From Flavobacteriales bacterium (GTDB taxonomy: Bacteria; Bacteroidota; Bacteroidia; CAIKAF01), in the NCBI GenBank assembly GCA_025451235.1, contig JANWKT010000007.1, positions 313,511-377,510 on the forward strand: a stretch of DNA of 64,000 bases, in the 5' to 3' direction. Numbering within the stretch: the first letter of the stretch is position 1; each line of letters opens with the position of its first letter. Under the pieces are notes generated by a model. It did no database searches, was not told the DNA's origin, and saw only the letters and a program-made list of their open reading frames with translations. Below are positions 13,868-55,155 of this stretch, in pieces. The position numbers were made by a program, and so were the translations under genes.

Positions 13868-13901
13868 TTAACATTGGCTTAATATTGGGCAATTACATTT
13901 G
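13868..13901 (+). promoter_or_regulatory. Porin promoter with Pho-box-like element
   Basis: TTG (13874-13876), a 17-base spacer and TACATTTG (13894-13901) form a full Bacteroidota promoter. Overlapping the TTG is TTAACAT-TGGC-TTAATAT (13868-13885), two 7-bp half-sites 4 bp apart. The 19 bases 13869-13887 recur exactly at 15202-15220 before the Pit gene, at the same distance (6 bases) from its -7 box. This supports common control of the two genes, plausibly by a PhoB-type regulator. Confidence 0.65.
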
Positions 13902-13921
13902 TGCAACTTACTCGCAATAAG

Positions 13922-15133
13922 ATGACAATAATTACTCGAATTGCCACCATGGTGGTAATGTTTCTCATAGTTTCATTCAACTATGGACAAGATTCCCTCA
14001 AAACATCCAAGAATAAAATTCCCTATTTCAACTACAAAAATGGTTTGGGTATTACTACTCCGGATAGTACATTTTCCCTCAACTTCCGGTTCAGGATCCA
14101 AAGCAGGGTTGGGTACATCTCAGAAAGTGACACCAACCTAACACCGGAAGAATTTGACTTTAGGGTAAGAAGAATGAGGCTTCGAATTGGTGGCTTTCTG
14201 TTTACACCCAGACTAAAATACAACGTACAGTTGTCGTTCAGCAGGGCCGACCAGGATTGGGATGTATCTCAGGTACCTAATATTTTACGGGATGCCATGA
14301 TATCCTATGAAACCAAGAGCGGATTTACTTTTGCGATAGGTCAAGGTAAGTTGCCAGGGAACCGTCAAAGAGTTATTTCTTCCGGAGAGCAGCAATTTAC
14401 TGATAGATCAGTCGTGAACAATGCACTAACCCTGGACAGGGACTTTGGGGTCTTTGTTAATTATGCAGGTCGTATTAAAAATTTTCATTTCATTATTAAA
14501 ACGGCTATTAGCTCGGGAGAAGGAAGAAATATTCTGTCCTCCGATAAAGGCCTTGCATATACAGGTCGTTTAGAGATATTGCCATTTGGAAAATTTACAG
14601 ATGATGGGGATTATTACGAAGGCGATCTGGCAAGAGAACCTAAACCAAAACTGGCGATTGGTGGAACAGCACATTTTAACCACCTTGCCCAGAGAACAGG
14701 AGGCCAATTAGGCAAATATTTATATGAGCAAAGAAGTTTGTTTTCGGTGCATGCTGATATGATTTTTAAATTCAAAGGTTTTGCACTTAGCAGTGAATAT
14801 TTGTTTCGAACCACCAATTCAGCCTATACAGCTGATACGTTGGGCAATTCCCGCTATGTATATGTTGGTCATGGGGTGAACTCCCAGGCAAGTTATTGTT
14901 TCAAAAAAATGTATGAGATCGCATTCCGCCACAGCGTTCTGATCCCGGATAACCAAATCATAGCAGATGAAAATTTAAAAAGTGAATATGCATTATGTTT
15001 CTCCAAATATTTTAAAAAACATAGACTGAAAATACAGACCGATCTCACCTATCATAGAGAACGAAACCTGGTCTCGAATAGAAATGAAGGCAATTATTTC
15101 CAGTGGAAGTTTCAGATTGAATTAGGTATTTAA
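13922..15133 (+). CDS. OprP-like phosphate-selective porin
   Basis: Outer-membrane porin of the OprO/OprP family, expected to let phosphate or polyphosphate enter the periplasm. The 403-residue product has a signal peptide (about 1-22, ending FNYGQ), then NFRFRIQSRVGY and DFRVRRMRLRIGGFLF, the start typical of this family. Strand-like segments follow to the end, finishing in an aromatic-rich strand (NYFQWKFQIELGI). A GTG seven codons upstream (13901) overlaps the -7 box, so ATG 13922 is preferred. The next gene is a phosphate permease, which fits the proposed substrate. Confidence 0.8.
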   Translation: MTIITRIATMVVMFLIVSFNYGQDSLKTSKNKIPYFNYKNGLGITTPDSTFSLNFRFRIQSRVGYISESDTNLTPEEFDFRVRRMRLRIGGFLFTPRLKYNVQLSFSRADQDWDVSQVPNILRDAMISYETKSGFTFAIGQGKLPGNRQRVISSGEQQFTDRSVVNNALTLDRDFGVFVNYAGRIKNFHFIIKTAISSGEGRNILSSDKGLAYTGRLEILPFGKFTDDGDYYEGDLAREPKPKLAIGGTAHFNHLAQRTGGQLGKYLYEQRSLFSVHADMIFKFKGFALSSEYLFRTTNSAYTADTLGNSRYVYVGHGVNSQASYCFKKMYEIAFRHSVLIPDNQIIADENLKSEYALCFSKYFKKHRLKIQTDLTYHRERNLVSNRNEGNYFQWKFQIELGI

Positions 15134-15201
15134 TATAAGTAATTGATAATAAGATATTTAAAAAAATAAACAAAAAAATTATTAGGATTAATCTTAACTG
15201 A

Positions 15202-15234
15202 TAACATTGGCTTAATATTGTAAATGTAAGTTTG
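15202..15234 (+). promoter_or_regulatory. Pit promoter with the same Pho-box-like element
   Basis: The 19 bases at 15202-15220 are identical to 13869-13887. TTG (15207-15209), a 17-base spacer and TAAGTTTG (15227-15234) reproduce the geometry of the porin promoter exactly. The ATG of the Pit gene is 42 bases downstream of the -7 box. Confidence 0.65.
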
Positions 15235-15276: not shown

Positions 15277-16695
15277 ATGTTCGGACTTGATACCACGATG
15301 ACCCTCTTGCTCATACTATGTTTGGTATGTGCTTTGTTTTTTGAATTTATCAATGGATTTCATGATACGGCGAATGCAGTGGCAACGGTTATATATACCA
15401 ATTCGCTTAAACCCGCCTATGCAGTTATGTGGTCGGGGTTATGGAATGCTATTGGGGTATTTGGGTTTCTCGCTATTGCAACAAAGCTTGGGGTAGCAAA
15501 TAAGATCATAGGAATACTTCCATCTTCGGTGATCATGTCAAATGATCTTTCGGTCAGTCTTTCGATCGTCCTGGCTATTTTAATTACGGCCATTGCATGG
15601 AACTTAGGTACCTGGTATTTTGGAATCCCATGCAGTAGTTCGCATACGTTGATCGGTTCTATTATAGGAGCAGGAATTGGATTTTCTATTGTTAACCATA
15701 TCGATATTTCTCAAGGTGTAAAATGGAGTGAAGCTTATAAGATCGGTCTTTCTCTTCTCATTTCTCCTATGGTAGGATTTTCCATGACCATCCTTACTAT
15801 GTATATATTCAAGGCGGTCATCAAGAGTAAACGGTTCTTCAAGGAAGCCGAAGGTGGTAAAAAACCTCCATTCTTCGTGAGACTTACTTTGATATCTACT
15901 TGTACACTGGTAAGCTATGCGCATGGAAACAATGATGGGCAAAAAGGAATGGGTTTGATCATGCTCATCCTGATAGGATTTGCTCCTGCTTATTTTTCCA
16001 TTAATAGCGAGATCAATTCCGATCATATGAAAACGGCTGTTGTTAATTACAGCGTTCTGTCGGAATCATTCACTAAAAGTGGGTTAAATGAAGCGGATGG
16101 AGGCCTGGTTAAAAAACTGGATAAAGATTTCGCCAAACTTGACAGCATGATAAGATTGGATGGGGCTACCGCAGTTATGAGCATTGCACATCGCTTTGAA
16201 GCCAGGAAAATAATCATGGGCATCAACAAGAACATCGATAAACTGTCGAAGTCAGAAACTGCCCCCATTTCTAAAGAATCAAGGGATAAATTATCGAATA
16301 CCAAATCCCTGCTCGACGAATATGTAGGTAGAGTTCCATGGTGGGTAAAATTATTGGTCTCCCTTGCGTTGGGTTTAGGAACAATGATAGGTTGGAAAAG
16401 AATTGTTATCACTATCGGAGAAAAAATAGGCAAACAACATCTATCCTATGCTCAGGGAGCAAGTGCCGAATTAGTGGCAGCTGCTACGATCCAGGCGGCT
16501 ACCTCGCTTAGTTTGCCGGTAAGCACCACCCAGGTATTGTCTTCTGGCATTGCCGGAAGTATGGTGGCCAGCAAGGGGATCAAAAACCTACAGAAAAAAA
16601 CAATCAAGTCCATTGCATTCGCCTGGTTGCTTACTTTCCCTGTAACTGTATTGTTATCCGGACTCCTATACCTTATATTCAAAGCTATTTTGTAA
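15277..16695 (+). CDS. pit: Inorganic phosphate transporter, Pit family
   Basis: Inner-membrane low-affinity phosphate (metal-phosphate) symporter. Both family signatures are present: GFHDTANAVATVIYT (about 27-41) in the N-terminal half, and AHGNNDGQKGMGL in the middle. About ten hydrophobic helices surround a hydrophilic cytoplasmic loop (about 245-355) rich in charged residues, as in other bacterial Pit proteins. The C-terminal half repeats the fold (QGASAELVAA, PVSTTQVLSSGIAGS). The 472-residue length is normal. The shared upstream element links it to the porin gene. Confidence 0.93.
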   Translation: MFGLDTTMTLLLILCLVCALFFEFINGFHDTANAVATVIYTNSLKPAYAVMWSGLWNAIGVFGFLAIATKLGVANKIIGILPSSVIMSNDLSVSLSIVLAILITAIAWNLGTWYFGIPCSSSHTLIGSIIGAGIGFSIVNHIDISQGVKWSEAYKIGLSLLISPMVGFSMTILTMYIFKAVIKSKRFFKEAEGGKKPPFFVRLTLISTCTLVSYAHGNNDGQKGMGLIMLILIGFAPAYFSINSEINSDHMKTAVVNYSVLSESFTKSGLNEADGGLVKKLDKDFAKLDSMIRLDGATAVMSIAHRFEARKIIMGINKNIDKLSKSETAPISKESRDKLSNTKSLLDEYVGRVPWWVKLLVSLALGLGTMIGWKRIVITIGEKIGKQHLSYAQGASAELVAAATIQAATSLSLPVSTTQVLSSGIAGSMVASKGIKNLQKKTIKSIAFAWLLTFPVTVLLSGLLYLIFKAIL

Positions 16696-41981: not shown

Positions 41982-44138
41982 TTATTGGATCACAATTTTC
42001 TTGACAAAGTAATGAATTCCATCGTTCATTTGCACAAAATAAATTCCAGAAGCAAAAGCAGTGGTTTGGATCGTAAAGTTGTTGTTCCCAACCCCCACTT
42101 GTATGTTTCTTTGTTGGATCAGTTTTCCATCCACATTTACAATAGCAAGGTCAAACTGCGCATTTATATTAGATGAAATACTCAGGTTCACCTGATCATC
42201 TGCAGGATTGGGATACAATAAAATATCGTTGAACGACATATCATCCAATCCCAGACATCCGCTTACCAATAAATTATCGGTATCCTGGTTGGTACATCCT
42301 TGCCCATCCGTATAGGTATAAGTAATTACATAGTTCCCCACTCCAATCCCCGGATCAAAACTTGTACCTGTAACTCCTGTTCCGCTATACGTACCACCAG
42401 CCGGAGTACCTCCACTCAGCGTAACAATACCCGCTGAAGAACAAACAGAATCAATAGCAAAATTGAAATTAACCGCCGGTCCATTATTTACCGTAATGGT
42501 AAGGGTATCATAGCCTGTACAACCACCGGCTCCTTCATATCGGTATACCACTTGATGATTGCCCAAACCAGCTACCTGAACATAAAAAACGCCTCCAGCA
42601 TCCACATATGGACTCAGGTAATCTCCACCCGACGGGGTTCCGGTAAGAACAACGGTAGTTAGCGATATACATGCAGTATCTGCTGTAGCGTTTAAAGATA
42701 CCGTGGGGGTAGTAGAGGATCCTAGTACCAAAATGGAAGAGGTATCCGTTGGATTAACACCACAGGATGGTTTATTTACGATCAATTGATAATTTCCTGG
42801 AGCACTTGCCAGATAGGTGGAGTCAATTGCCCCACCGATCGGTGAACCGTTGAATAACCACTGATAGTTCAAACCGGTTCCTGGAGCGGATACCAATTGG
42901 ATTGGATTTCCATCACAGGTCACTATTTGATTCAACGGGGTTTCAATAACCGCCGCAGGAGTACAATTACTGCTATTTACACGGTATATGGTCCCATTAG
43001 AAATATCCGCGGCATAAATATATCCACGGGTATCCTGGTTCATAGCAACTATAAAATGGCTGCCTGATAAGTTGTTGTGACGTGTGGTATCATATACTCC
43101 TCCACCAGCAGTATCCCAGGTCAATGTCCAGAAATAATCATTGCAATAGTCGCTGAAAAATAATTTTTTATACAGGTCATTCCACATGGCGCCACGGTAC
43201 ACTTCACCTGCTGTAATGCTGCACATAGGTCCGGTTGATTGAGGAACGTCTGCAACAGGTGAGTTATAGGTATTTTGTGGCTGGCAACCGCTGGTATTAT
43301 AAGGGAACAATCCTTCGTAACATCTCCATCCATAATTTTCACCGCCAGTGCTCGAAGCCAATTGATGGTCAATTTCTTCATGGGCATCCTGGCCCACATC
43401 TCCTATCCACATATCGCCGGTGATCCGATCAAAACTAAACTTCCATGGATTTCTTAATCCTTTTGCCCAGGTGGAGCCTATATATCCAGCCACTCCATAA
43501 AAAGGGTTCGAAACCGGATCGGTATAACCAGGTGCATCCACATTGATCCGAAGCATCTTTCCCATTTTGGTGAGGTTATTTTGAGCATTGTTAGGGATAT
43601 CACCTGCTCCTCCTCCATCACCCATTCCCACATATAAGTATCCATCAGGGCCAAATTGAATACATCCACCATTGTGGTTGCTGGCATTATCCGGCACTGT
43701 AAATAAAACTACTTCAGAATTTGGGTCAGCTACCAAAGGGTTTCCAGTACTCCTTGAAAACCTGGATACCCGGTTATCCCCATCCGCAGAACTTCCCGCT
43801 GAATCGATGGTATAATAAACATAGAAATAACCCGTGGTTTGGTAATCATCAGGAAAAGCCAGCCCCAGCAGGCCTTGCTCATTTCCATTGTCGTAAACCC
43901 TGGATTGAATATCCAACCAATCCCCAGCTACGGCGGTCCCATTTGTATTAATGATCCGAATAGTCCCTGGTTGTTCTACAATATATAGCCGGTCATCACC
44001 AGGAGCCTGTGCCATGGTGATAGGGCTGCTAAAGCCTGTACAATAAGAGGATAAGGTATAAGTCTGCGCAAAGAGGTTTGAGGTAAGGGTAACGAAGAGA
44101 ATGAGTGTTAGTTTTTTCATGAGAGATTTGTTTTTCAT
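41982..44138 (-). CDS. T9SS-exported PQQ-type sugar dehydrogenase
   Basis: The signal peptide ends SNLFAQ (about residue 25). Residues about 30-390 are a soluble glucose/sorbosone dehydrogenase six-bladed propeller (YIVEQPGTIRII, NEQGLLGLAFPDDY, HNGGCIQFGPDGYLYVGMGD). Family members bind PQQ and oxidise aldose sugars. About 390-640 are short Ig-like domains with cysteine pairs. The last about 75 residues are a T9SS sorting domain (LLYPNPADDQVNLSI to VKKIVIQ). It may start at Met1 or Met7 (44120). The downstream gene follows by 4 bases. Confidence 0.85.
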   Translation of the reverse strand: MKNKSLMKKLTLILFVTLTSNLFAQTYTLSSYCTGFSSPITMAQAPGDDRLYIVEQPGTIRIINTNGTAVAGDWLDIQSRVYDNGNEQGLLGLAFPDDYQTTGYFYVYYTIDSAGSSADGDNRVSRFSRSTGNPLVADPNSEVVLFTVPDNASNHNGGCIQFGPDGYLYVGMGDGGGAGDIPNNAQNNLTKMGKMLRINVDAPGYTDPVSNPFYGVAGYIGSTWAKGLRNPWKFSFDRITGDMWIGDVGQDAHEEIDHQLASSTGGENYGWRCYEGLFPYNTSGCQPQNTYNSPVADVPQSTGPMCSITAGEVYRGAMWNDLYKKLFFSDYCNDYFWTLTWDTAGGGVYDTTRHNNLSGSHFIVAMNQDTRGYIYAADISNGTIYRVNSSNCTPAAVIETPLNQIVTCDGNPIQLVSAPGTGLNYQWLFNGSPIGGAIDSTYLASAPGNYQLIVNKPSCGVNPTDTSSILVLGSSTTPTVSLNATADTACISLTTVVLTGTPSGGDYLSPYVDAGGVFYVQVAGLGNHQVVYRYEGAGGCTGYDTLTITVNNGPAVNFNFAIDSVCSSAGIVTLSGGTPAGGTYSGTGVTGTSFDPGIGVGNYVITYTYTDGQGCTNQDTDNLLVSGCLGLDDMSFNDILLYPNPADDQVNLSISSNINAQFDLAIVNVDGKLIQQRNIQVGVGNNNFTIQTTAFASGIYFVQMNDGIHYFVKKIVIQ

Positions 44139-46047: not shown

Positions 46048-47901
46048 TTATTTCTTTATGAATCTCCTGGTAGAAGATCCCCCTGTGCTGTTCTGGATCT
46101 TTATTAAATAAGTTCCGGAAGTGAAAGTGGAAATATTGATCGGCTCTGTATGATCAGCAGAGCCTATATGGATCTCTTTTGCCAATAATAATTTTCCTTC
46201 AATGGTATATATCTCTAATTTCCAATTCATGTTTGCCTCAACAGAAGTAAAATGAACCGAAATAAATTCATCCGCAGGATTTGGGTATAATTGAACATTG
46301 TTGCTAAATACGTCTTCTATTCCGGCACAACCATTCACCATAATGGTTACTGTTGCAGTATCGCTGCAGCCATTTCCATCGGTATATGAATATGAAACCG
46401 GATGTGAACCTACACCCGCAGTAGTGGGATTGAATAAATTACCCGTAAGGGCTGCACTTCCAAAATAAGTTCCTCCAGCAGGAGTACCCGTGAGGGTTAC
46501 TGCTCCATGATTTACACAGGGTGAAAGATCAGATGAAGATAAACCTGCTGTAGGTGCTGCATTCACCGTGAAGGTTTGTACATCATTATCAGAACAACCA
46601 TTTGCATCCGTATAGGTATAAGTAATCGTTTGCGTTCCAAAGGATGGATCAAACTGCCCTCCACTTACTCCGCTTCCTGAATAAACACCCCCTGCTGGAC
46701 TTCCACCGCTTAAAGTAACCGGAGATGCATAGGAGCAAACCGGATTAAAAGGTTGCTGGTTAACCGTTGGAGCCGTATTTACGGTAATCATACCGCTAGT
46801 GCTCTGTGGACAACCAAAGGCATCTGTAATATTATAGAAAATGGTTTGTGTACCTGATGACGGATCAAATTGCCCAGCTGTTACGCCGGTTCCTGAATAA
46901 GTTCCACCCGCAGGTGTACCTTCCACCAAGGTATAAAGAGGGCCATTCGAACATTGTTGCGGAAAGGATGATAAGTTGGCGCCTCCAATAGGGCAATCAA
47001 TCGTAATACTATACGCTTGCGAACCTGAACATCCACTGGCATCCATTACTGTAACTGTAAAATTAAACGTTCCGGTAGCAGTGGGTGTTCCTGAAACAAC
47101 ACCAGCGCCTGATAAACTTAAACCTGGAGGTAACGCACCTGCGGTAACAGAATAAGCAGGTGCACCTAACGCTCCTGTTTGACTAAGATTTTGGTTATAG
47201 GCTACTCCTCCGGTACCATTTGGTAAAGAACTGGGTGAAACTGTTAATGTAGGACAGACATAAGGTGTATATTGAAATGCATCAATACCAATATAATCAG
47301 AATTGCTCCCTGACAAACCTGCGCCGGTTACAAAATAACGAAAGGCTAAACGGCCTGAAGTAGGTGCCGGCAATCCTGAAATAGTGATGGTATATTGTGT
47401 CCACACTACAGGATAAACTCCCAATACCAGCGATGGGTTGATACTTAAAAGAAGGTTTGTAAAATCCCCAACATCGGTTGCGATGGTACCAACATTTGTA
47501 CTAGCTCCATTTGTGCTCATGCGTACTTCCAATCTATCGGCATAAGAATCAGGGCTTACCTTTCTGGTATAAAAGGTAAATACATCACCATTCTTTAAAG
47601 TAACATTGGGAGTTTCCAGCCAGTTACTAATGGTACCTGTGGTACCTGTATTGTTATAATTAGCACCTATATATGAATTGGCTGCCCCATTAAAAGAATC
47701 GAAAGGTCCTCCTGCCCCAACATTGGTTCCTTGAAACCATGCGGTGGAACCAACAGGGGTGCTGTTGTTTTGAAGAAACCACCCATTGCCCGCAAGAAGG
47801 GTAATGTTGTCAAAATTTTCGGTGATTTGAGCAGAAATACAGGTTCCTGTAAAAAATAAACTGCATAGCACAATGGCTACTTGGTGTAGTCGTTTATTCA
47901 T
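46048..47901 (-). CDS. T9SS-exported choice-of-anchor/Ig protein (short paralogue)
   Basis: The signal peptide (about 1-25) is followed by a choice-of-anchor J-type domain (about 27-215), one He_PIG repeat (about 216-300: PPGLSLSGAGVVSGTP), three Ig-like repeats with the GGTYSGTGV pattern, and a T9SS sorting domain (about 540-617, LYPNPADEFISVHF). It is a clear paralogue of the gene at 48136-50811. The two share a near-identical C-terminal 180 residues and the same promoter layout. It is probably surface-displayed. Confidence 0.82.
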   Translation of the reverse strand: MNKRLHQVAIVLCSLFFTGTCISAQITENFDNITLLAGNGWFLQNNSTPVGSTAWFQGTNVGAGGPFDSFNGAANSYIGANYNNTGTTGTISNWLETPNVTLKNGDVFTFYTRKVSPDSYADRLEVRMSTNGASTNVGTIATDVGDFTNLLLSINPSLVLGVYPVVWTQYTITISGLPAPTSGRLAFRYFVTGAGLSGSNSDYIGIDAFQYTPYVCPTLTVSPSSLPNGTGGVAYNQNLSQTGALGAPAYSVTAGALPPGLSLSGAGVVSGTPTATGTFNFTVTVMDASGCSGSQAYSITIDCPIGGANLSSFPQQCSNGPLYTLVEGTPAGGTYSGTGVTAGQFDPSSGTQTIFYNITDAFGCPQSTSGMITVNTAPTVNQQPFNPVCSYASPVTLSGGSPAGGVYSGSGVSGGQFDPSFGTQTITYTYTDANGCSDNDVQTFTVNAAPTAGLSSSDLSPCVNHGAVTLTGTPAGGTYFGSAALTGNLFNPTTAGVGSHPVSYSYTDGNGCSDTATVTIMVNGCAGIEDVFSNNVQLYPNPADEFISVHFTSVEANMNWKLEIYTIEGKLLLAKEIHIGSADHTEPINISTFTSGTYLIKIQNSTGGSSTRRFIKK

Positions 47902-55135: not shown

Positions 55136-55155
55136 CCTGCCTGCCGGCAGGCAGG
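55136..55155. repeat. 20-bp perfect GC-rich palindrome
   Basis: CCTGCCTGCCGGCAGGCAGG is a complete palindrome of direct CCTG/GCAGG units. It is likely a member of a dispersed palindromic repeat. Confidence 0.75.

Follow-up and report, generated by a model that had tools for sequence, protein, structure and literature searches.

Two genes of phosphate uptake are encoded on the forward strand of the window, by which we mean the whole 64,000-nucleotide stretch of Flavobacteriales bacterium DNA that was analysed. The first (13922-15133) encodes a homologue of the phosphate-selective porins O and P (Pfam PF07396, E 3.1e-10), and the second (15277-16695) encodes a Pit-type inorganic phosphate permease (Pfam PF01384, PHO4, E 1.4e-82), whose match to the NCBIfam PitA model falls below the cut-off of that model. 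These Pfam assignments agree with the identities that an earlier, sequence-only reading had proposed for both genes. The longest open frame of the porin begins with GTG at 13901, but this codon overlaps the -7 box of its promoter, and ATG 13922 is the probable start.

Comparison of the regions upstream of the two genes revealed a shared promoter module. The 19-mer TAACATTGGCTTAATATTG is present twice in the window, at 13869-13887 and 15202-15220, and the two copies are identical. In the porin promoter, the putative Pho box TTAACATTGGCTTAATATTG (13868-13887, forward strand) consists of two 11-bp direct repeats, TTAACATTGGC and TTAATATTG(G), and recurs in other genomes. The -33 TTG (13874-13876) lies within the first repeat unit and is followed by a 17-bp spacer (13877-13893) and by the eight-base -7 box TACATTTG (13894-13901). 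The Pit promoter, on the same strand, is built in the same way, with the box ATAACATTGGCTTAATATTG (15201-15220; units ATAACATTGGC and TTAATATTG), a TTG within the first unit (15207-15209), a 17-bp spacer (15210-15226) and the eight-base -7 box TAAGTTTG (15227-15234), and in both promoters the -7 box starts 6 bp past the end of the Pho box. The identical 19 bases, the overlap with the TTG, the 6-bp gap and the length of the spacer had all been reported in the sequence-only reading, and all are exact. The two 7-bp half-sites with a 4-bp gap that it had described are likewise confirmed, and are better written as 11-bp units (TTAACATTGGC/TTAATATTGG). The box thus has direct 7-bp half-sites, 4-bp linkers and an 11-bp period, which is the layout of a Pho box.

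The recurrence of the 19-mer is not a product of chance. None of 60 first-order Markov randomisations of the window, which preserve its dinucleotide composition, contained a repeated 19-mer, and a second-order model predicts 1e-6 occurrences of this 19-mer per window strand and 1.4e-4 per genome. The copies stand 1333 bp from each other, and their identity ends at the box, as the flanks and the -7 boxes differ. No other site within two mismatches of TTAACAT-N4-TTAATAT was found elsewhere in the window. Repeats of other kinds were also noted in the window: a perfect palindrome, CCTGCCTGCCGGCAGGCAGG (55136-55155), which resembles a mobile or structural repeat, and exact direct repeats at 46171 and 48259 (>30 bp) and at 42305 and 46605 (22 bp).

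Pattern searches of the host genome (4.28 Mb, 98% complete) identified six sites with at most three mismatches, versus none for the reversed control. Obvious phosphate genes were observed at two of the six, both in the window. Two of the other four are also kept in the only sister genome from the genus (L043, L047). One of these is a reverse-oriented box on contig C20 (L004, 1501-1520), 66 bp upstream of a MORN-repeat gene (1586-1978); the other is a reverse-oriented box on contig C8 (L005, 1501-1520), ~120 bp upstream of a TonB receptor gene (L037, 5200-8046). The remaining two sites, on contigs C13 and C24, are without an obvious phosphate gene. A looser pattern, with two mismatches, yielded 22 sites versus 9 in the control and was too noisy to extend the set.

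Searches of further genomes revealed that the box is widespread. The pattern TTAAYATTNNCTTAAYATTG was found at nine sites in 100 relatives (one in the control), and a generalised box, TTAACATTNNCTTAAYATTG, at 31 sites in 395 genomes of the class (none in the control). Sixteen of these 31 sites precede DUF47-Pit operons, two precede Pit genes, one a PstS gene and at least two Pfam-confirmed porins; the others lie at outer-membrane-type genes with no or marginal Pfam match, MORN genes and unrelated genes. The near-exact form TAACATTGGCTTAAYATTG, searched for in 84,980 species genomes, was found at 63 loci, 60 of them intergenic. By record title, 57 of the 63 belong to Bacteroidota, four are Clostridia-type, one is Desulfotomaculum and one is a Deltaproteobacteria metagenome-assembled genome (MAG). 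Phosphate or polyphosphate families account for at least 26 of the 48 downstream genes of this set (by Pfam, DUF47 9, porin O/P 6, PHO4 5, VTC 3, PstS-like 2 and Na/Pi cotransporter 1), and about seven of the 48 encoded proteins are of the TonB-receptor type. DUF47, porin O/P and VTC are absent among the families listed for 60 genes farther away in these loci, where PHO4 appears six times, some of these being the second genes of the operons concerned. The sequence-only reading had predicted that matches would lie near pho/pst genes; this holds across the phylum, where most of them are found at genes for DUF47-Pit, Pit, porin O/P and PstS and at polyphosphate genes, and within the host genome it applies to only two of the six sites.

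Polyphosphate metabolism was encountered in two further settings. VTC-domain polyphosphate polymerases of Clostridia-type MAGs (L082, L090, L111) also have the exact box upstream, which suggests that the half-site may be common to Bacteroidota and Firmicutes. In another genome (G099, L045), a box at 1501-1520 lies upstream of a histidine-phosphatase-family (SixA-like) gene that is followed by a polyphosphate kinase-like gene.

Because these loci had been found by means of the box itself, we also performed a box-blind test, in which genes were picked by protein similarity and the 250 bp upstream of each were scored with a threshold of at least 15 of 18 positions. The box was found upstream of 7/10 Pit orthologues, 11/16 DUF47 genes and 5/23 PstS-like genes, versus 0/7 genes for TonB-linked periplasmic-binding-type (PBP) proteins, 6/125 other genes and at most 1.3% in shuffled sequence. 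The box has been retained upstream of Pit orthologues from other genera, and only 5/19 distant porin homologues have one. The box is therefore located upstream of phosphate-acquisition genes more often than chance would place it there.

Additional information on promoter architecture was obtained from 75 non-redundant Bacteroidota sites. A -7 box was observed to start 6 bp (n = 14), 7 bp (n = 7) or 17 bp (n = 5) after the box, against a background of 0.55 per position further downstream. The box overlaps the -33 element at fixed distances (6/7 bp or 17 bp) from the -7 box. The two -7 registers are one 11-bp unit apart, which implies that the -33 element is provided by the TTG of one unit or of the other. 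A third half-site is weakly enriched at offsets -11, +22 and +33.

Reverse-oriented boxes were also observed 53-76 bp upstream of genes for small secreted proteins that resemble one another in type, at five loci (L004, L053, L070, L078, L176), with the host, its sister and other lineages represented. Pfam detects MORN_2 repeats in three of these five proteins, and several of the MORN-type upstream regions carry three to four tandem 11-bp half-sites, reversed. The small MORN-repeat protein is a candidate new member of the Pho regulon.

The host genome encodes five OmpR-family regulators, one of which (L048, contig C17) is PhoB-like and adjacent to a PhoR-like kinase. The best NCBIfam match of this regulator is PhoB (E 9e-66) and it also matches the Bacteroides PhoB model at E 2e-64, neither match reaching its cut-off, and the best families of the kinase are PnpS/PhoR, again below curated cut-offs; at that level of similarity, the pair is the regulator and kinase to be expected with a Pho box. 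The closest solved structure to the regulator, by sequence, is RegX3 of Mycobacterium tuberculosis, a phosphate-responsive regulator. Kinases and regulators located beside boxes or PstS in other genomes (L081, L085, L134, L181-L188) are 46-66% identical to the L048 pair, versus at most 33% to the host's four other pairs; the exceptions are L094, where the pair is of the L049 type, and L095, where there is a hybrid kinase. In a genome of another family (G170, L195), the order phoR and phoB, TonB receptor, box, porin-like gene, box, DUF47, Pit was observed, and its PhoB and PhoR are orthologues of the L048 pair. The twin-box order is also present in G109 (L194), and G240 (L193) has porin, box, Pit. 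The promoter of the L048 regulator itself has no box scoring at least 17/20.

No PhoU domain was found in the host genome, and the only PBP_like_2 match in it is a PstS-like protein encoded in an ExbB-ExbD-ExbD-TonB-PBP-TPR cluster (L200, 3323-9393, contig C14); the PhoU and PstSCAB operon of PhoBR-Pst-PhoU signalling were thus not found there. Because no PhoU was found and the sole PBP_like_2 protein is linked to TonB and ExbBD, the usual Pst-PhoU signal route seems to be absent. The host PstS-like gene was considered as a member of the regulon and rejected, because it is TonB/ExbBD-linked and genes of this type lack the box (0/7).

Since the exact switch recurs before phosphate-uptake genes across Bacteroidota, it is almost certainly the docking site of PhoB in this phylum, and the shared module is very probably a Pho box of Bacteroidota type, fused with the -33 element, that acts as a phosphate-starvation switch for the porin and the Pit permease. 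The evidence for this is the sequence, spacing and recurrence of the box, its gene neighbours, and the orthology and linkage of the regulator. That the box is of the PhoB type, as the sequence-only reading had suggested, is supported by matches that lie mainly at phosphate genes across the phylum and by linked regulators that are mostly orthologues of the L048 pair. From PhoB biology, we would expect this PhoB to bind the box, to activate rather than repress, to contact sigma and to respond to a phosphate signal. When phosphate is scarce, the PhoR-type kinase on contig C17 would phosphorylate its partner, the PhoB-type regulator, which as a head-to-tail dimer would bind the two 11-bp units TTAAYATTNNC TTAAYATTG. 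Because a half-site ends in the -33 TTG, the bound dimer would cover the -33 region beside the -7 box and recruit the housekeeping sigma factor there, and the outer-membrane porin and inner-membrane Pit permease would be switched on together.

The box could instead be recognised by another member of the OmpR/PhoB family, one that also reads TTAACA-like 11-bp repeats and has phosphate genes as only part of its set. The host has four other OmpR-family regulators, some boxes are located at TonB receptors and MORN-repeat genes, and a regulator named PhoP in Riemerella anatipestifer, also an OmpR-family regulator of Bacteroidota, has a DAP-seq motif with a conserved TTTAACA, and so a TTAACA core, whose reported direct targets are centred on stress and virulence genes and are not, for the most part, phosphate genes (PMC9603813). 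We consider this unlikely, as the predominant targets of the box are phosphate genes and the regulators linked to it are, with the exceptions of L094 and L095, orthologues of the L048 pair. It is less probable still, and indeed very improbable, that the box is an unusually strong constitutive promoter element that needs no regulator. Its overlap with the -33 TTG and the 17-bp spacer would fit such an element, but conservation extends upstream of the TTG as an 11-bp direct repeat, the box occurs mainly at phosphate genes, the -7 box can sit one repeat further, and reverse-oriented copies are also located upstream of promoters. The possibility that a single promoter was recently duplicated in place, with no significance for regulation, would explain two copies identical over 19 bp and only 1333 bp apart, but has next to no likelihood given that the identity is confined to the box, that the box is found, without the porin, at Pit orthologues from other genera, and that boxes recur across families, with twin boxes in another family at different transporter types.

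The PhoB docking site proposed here resembles known Pho boxes and differs from each of them. The PhoP box of Bacillus subtilis consists of TTAACA-type 11-bp repeats at phosphate genes, and shares its half-sites, period and type of target with the box described here; it belongs to another phylum and to promoters of another type, and in Bacteroidota the box is extended to TTAAYATTG and has a fixed -33/-7 geometry. The Escherichia coli box is likewise built from 7-bp half-sites with 4-bp linkers and an 11-bp period, and is found at the -35 position of phosphate genes; its consensus is CTGTCAT, whereas the half-site here is TTAAYAT, with the -33 TTG inside it and the -7 box 6-7 or 17 bp downstream. 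This difference excludes only the E. coli subtype, because Pho boxes in several phyla are 11-nt direct repeats whose consensus depends on the species (PMC4415409). Within Bacteroidota, two reports describe binding of PhoB to the pstC promoter of Bacteroides fragilis, where it is required for pstC expression at low phosphate (PMC3547664), and a phosphate regulon with phosphate-responsive TonB receptors in Flavobacterium johnsoniae (PMC8115612). As described there, these systems are PhoB-dependent phosphate regulons like the one proposed here; the host genome, unlike them, is without PhoU and without an evident pst operon. A literature search that covered few subscription journals found no published Bacteroidota Pho-box sequence. 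Pho boxes, PhoB-pstC binding in Bacteroidota and a phosphate regulon are thus already known, and the Bacteroidota form of the box appears to be a new variant that is well supported by sequence.

A wider reading, to which we give an even chance, is that throughout Bacteroidota the Pho box TTAAYATTNNCTTAAYATTG has merged with the -33 element of the phylum, so that recognition of the -33 element passes to PhoB, in two registers separated by one repeat unit, that the regulon includes the recurrent small MORN-repeat protein under reverse-oriented boxes, and that the host runs this regulon without PhoU or Pst, in which case it must sense phosphate by some other means. Guts, soils and seas all harbour abundant Bacteroidota, whose promoter type is unusual, and the box shows how an activator may meet a -33/-7 promoter. 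A defined Pho box would make the phosphate regulon predictable from sequence in thousands of species, and one switch would link an outer-membrane porin, a Pit permease, TonB receptors and polyphosphate genes.
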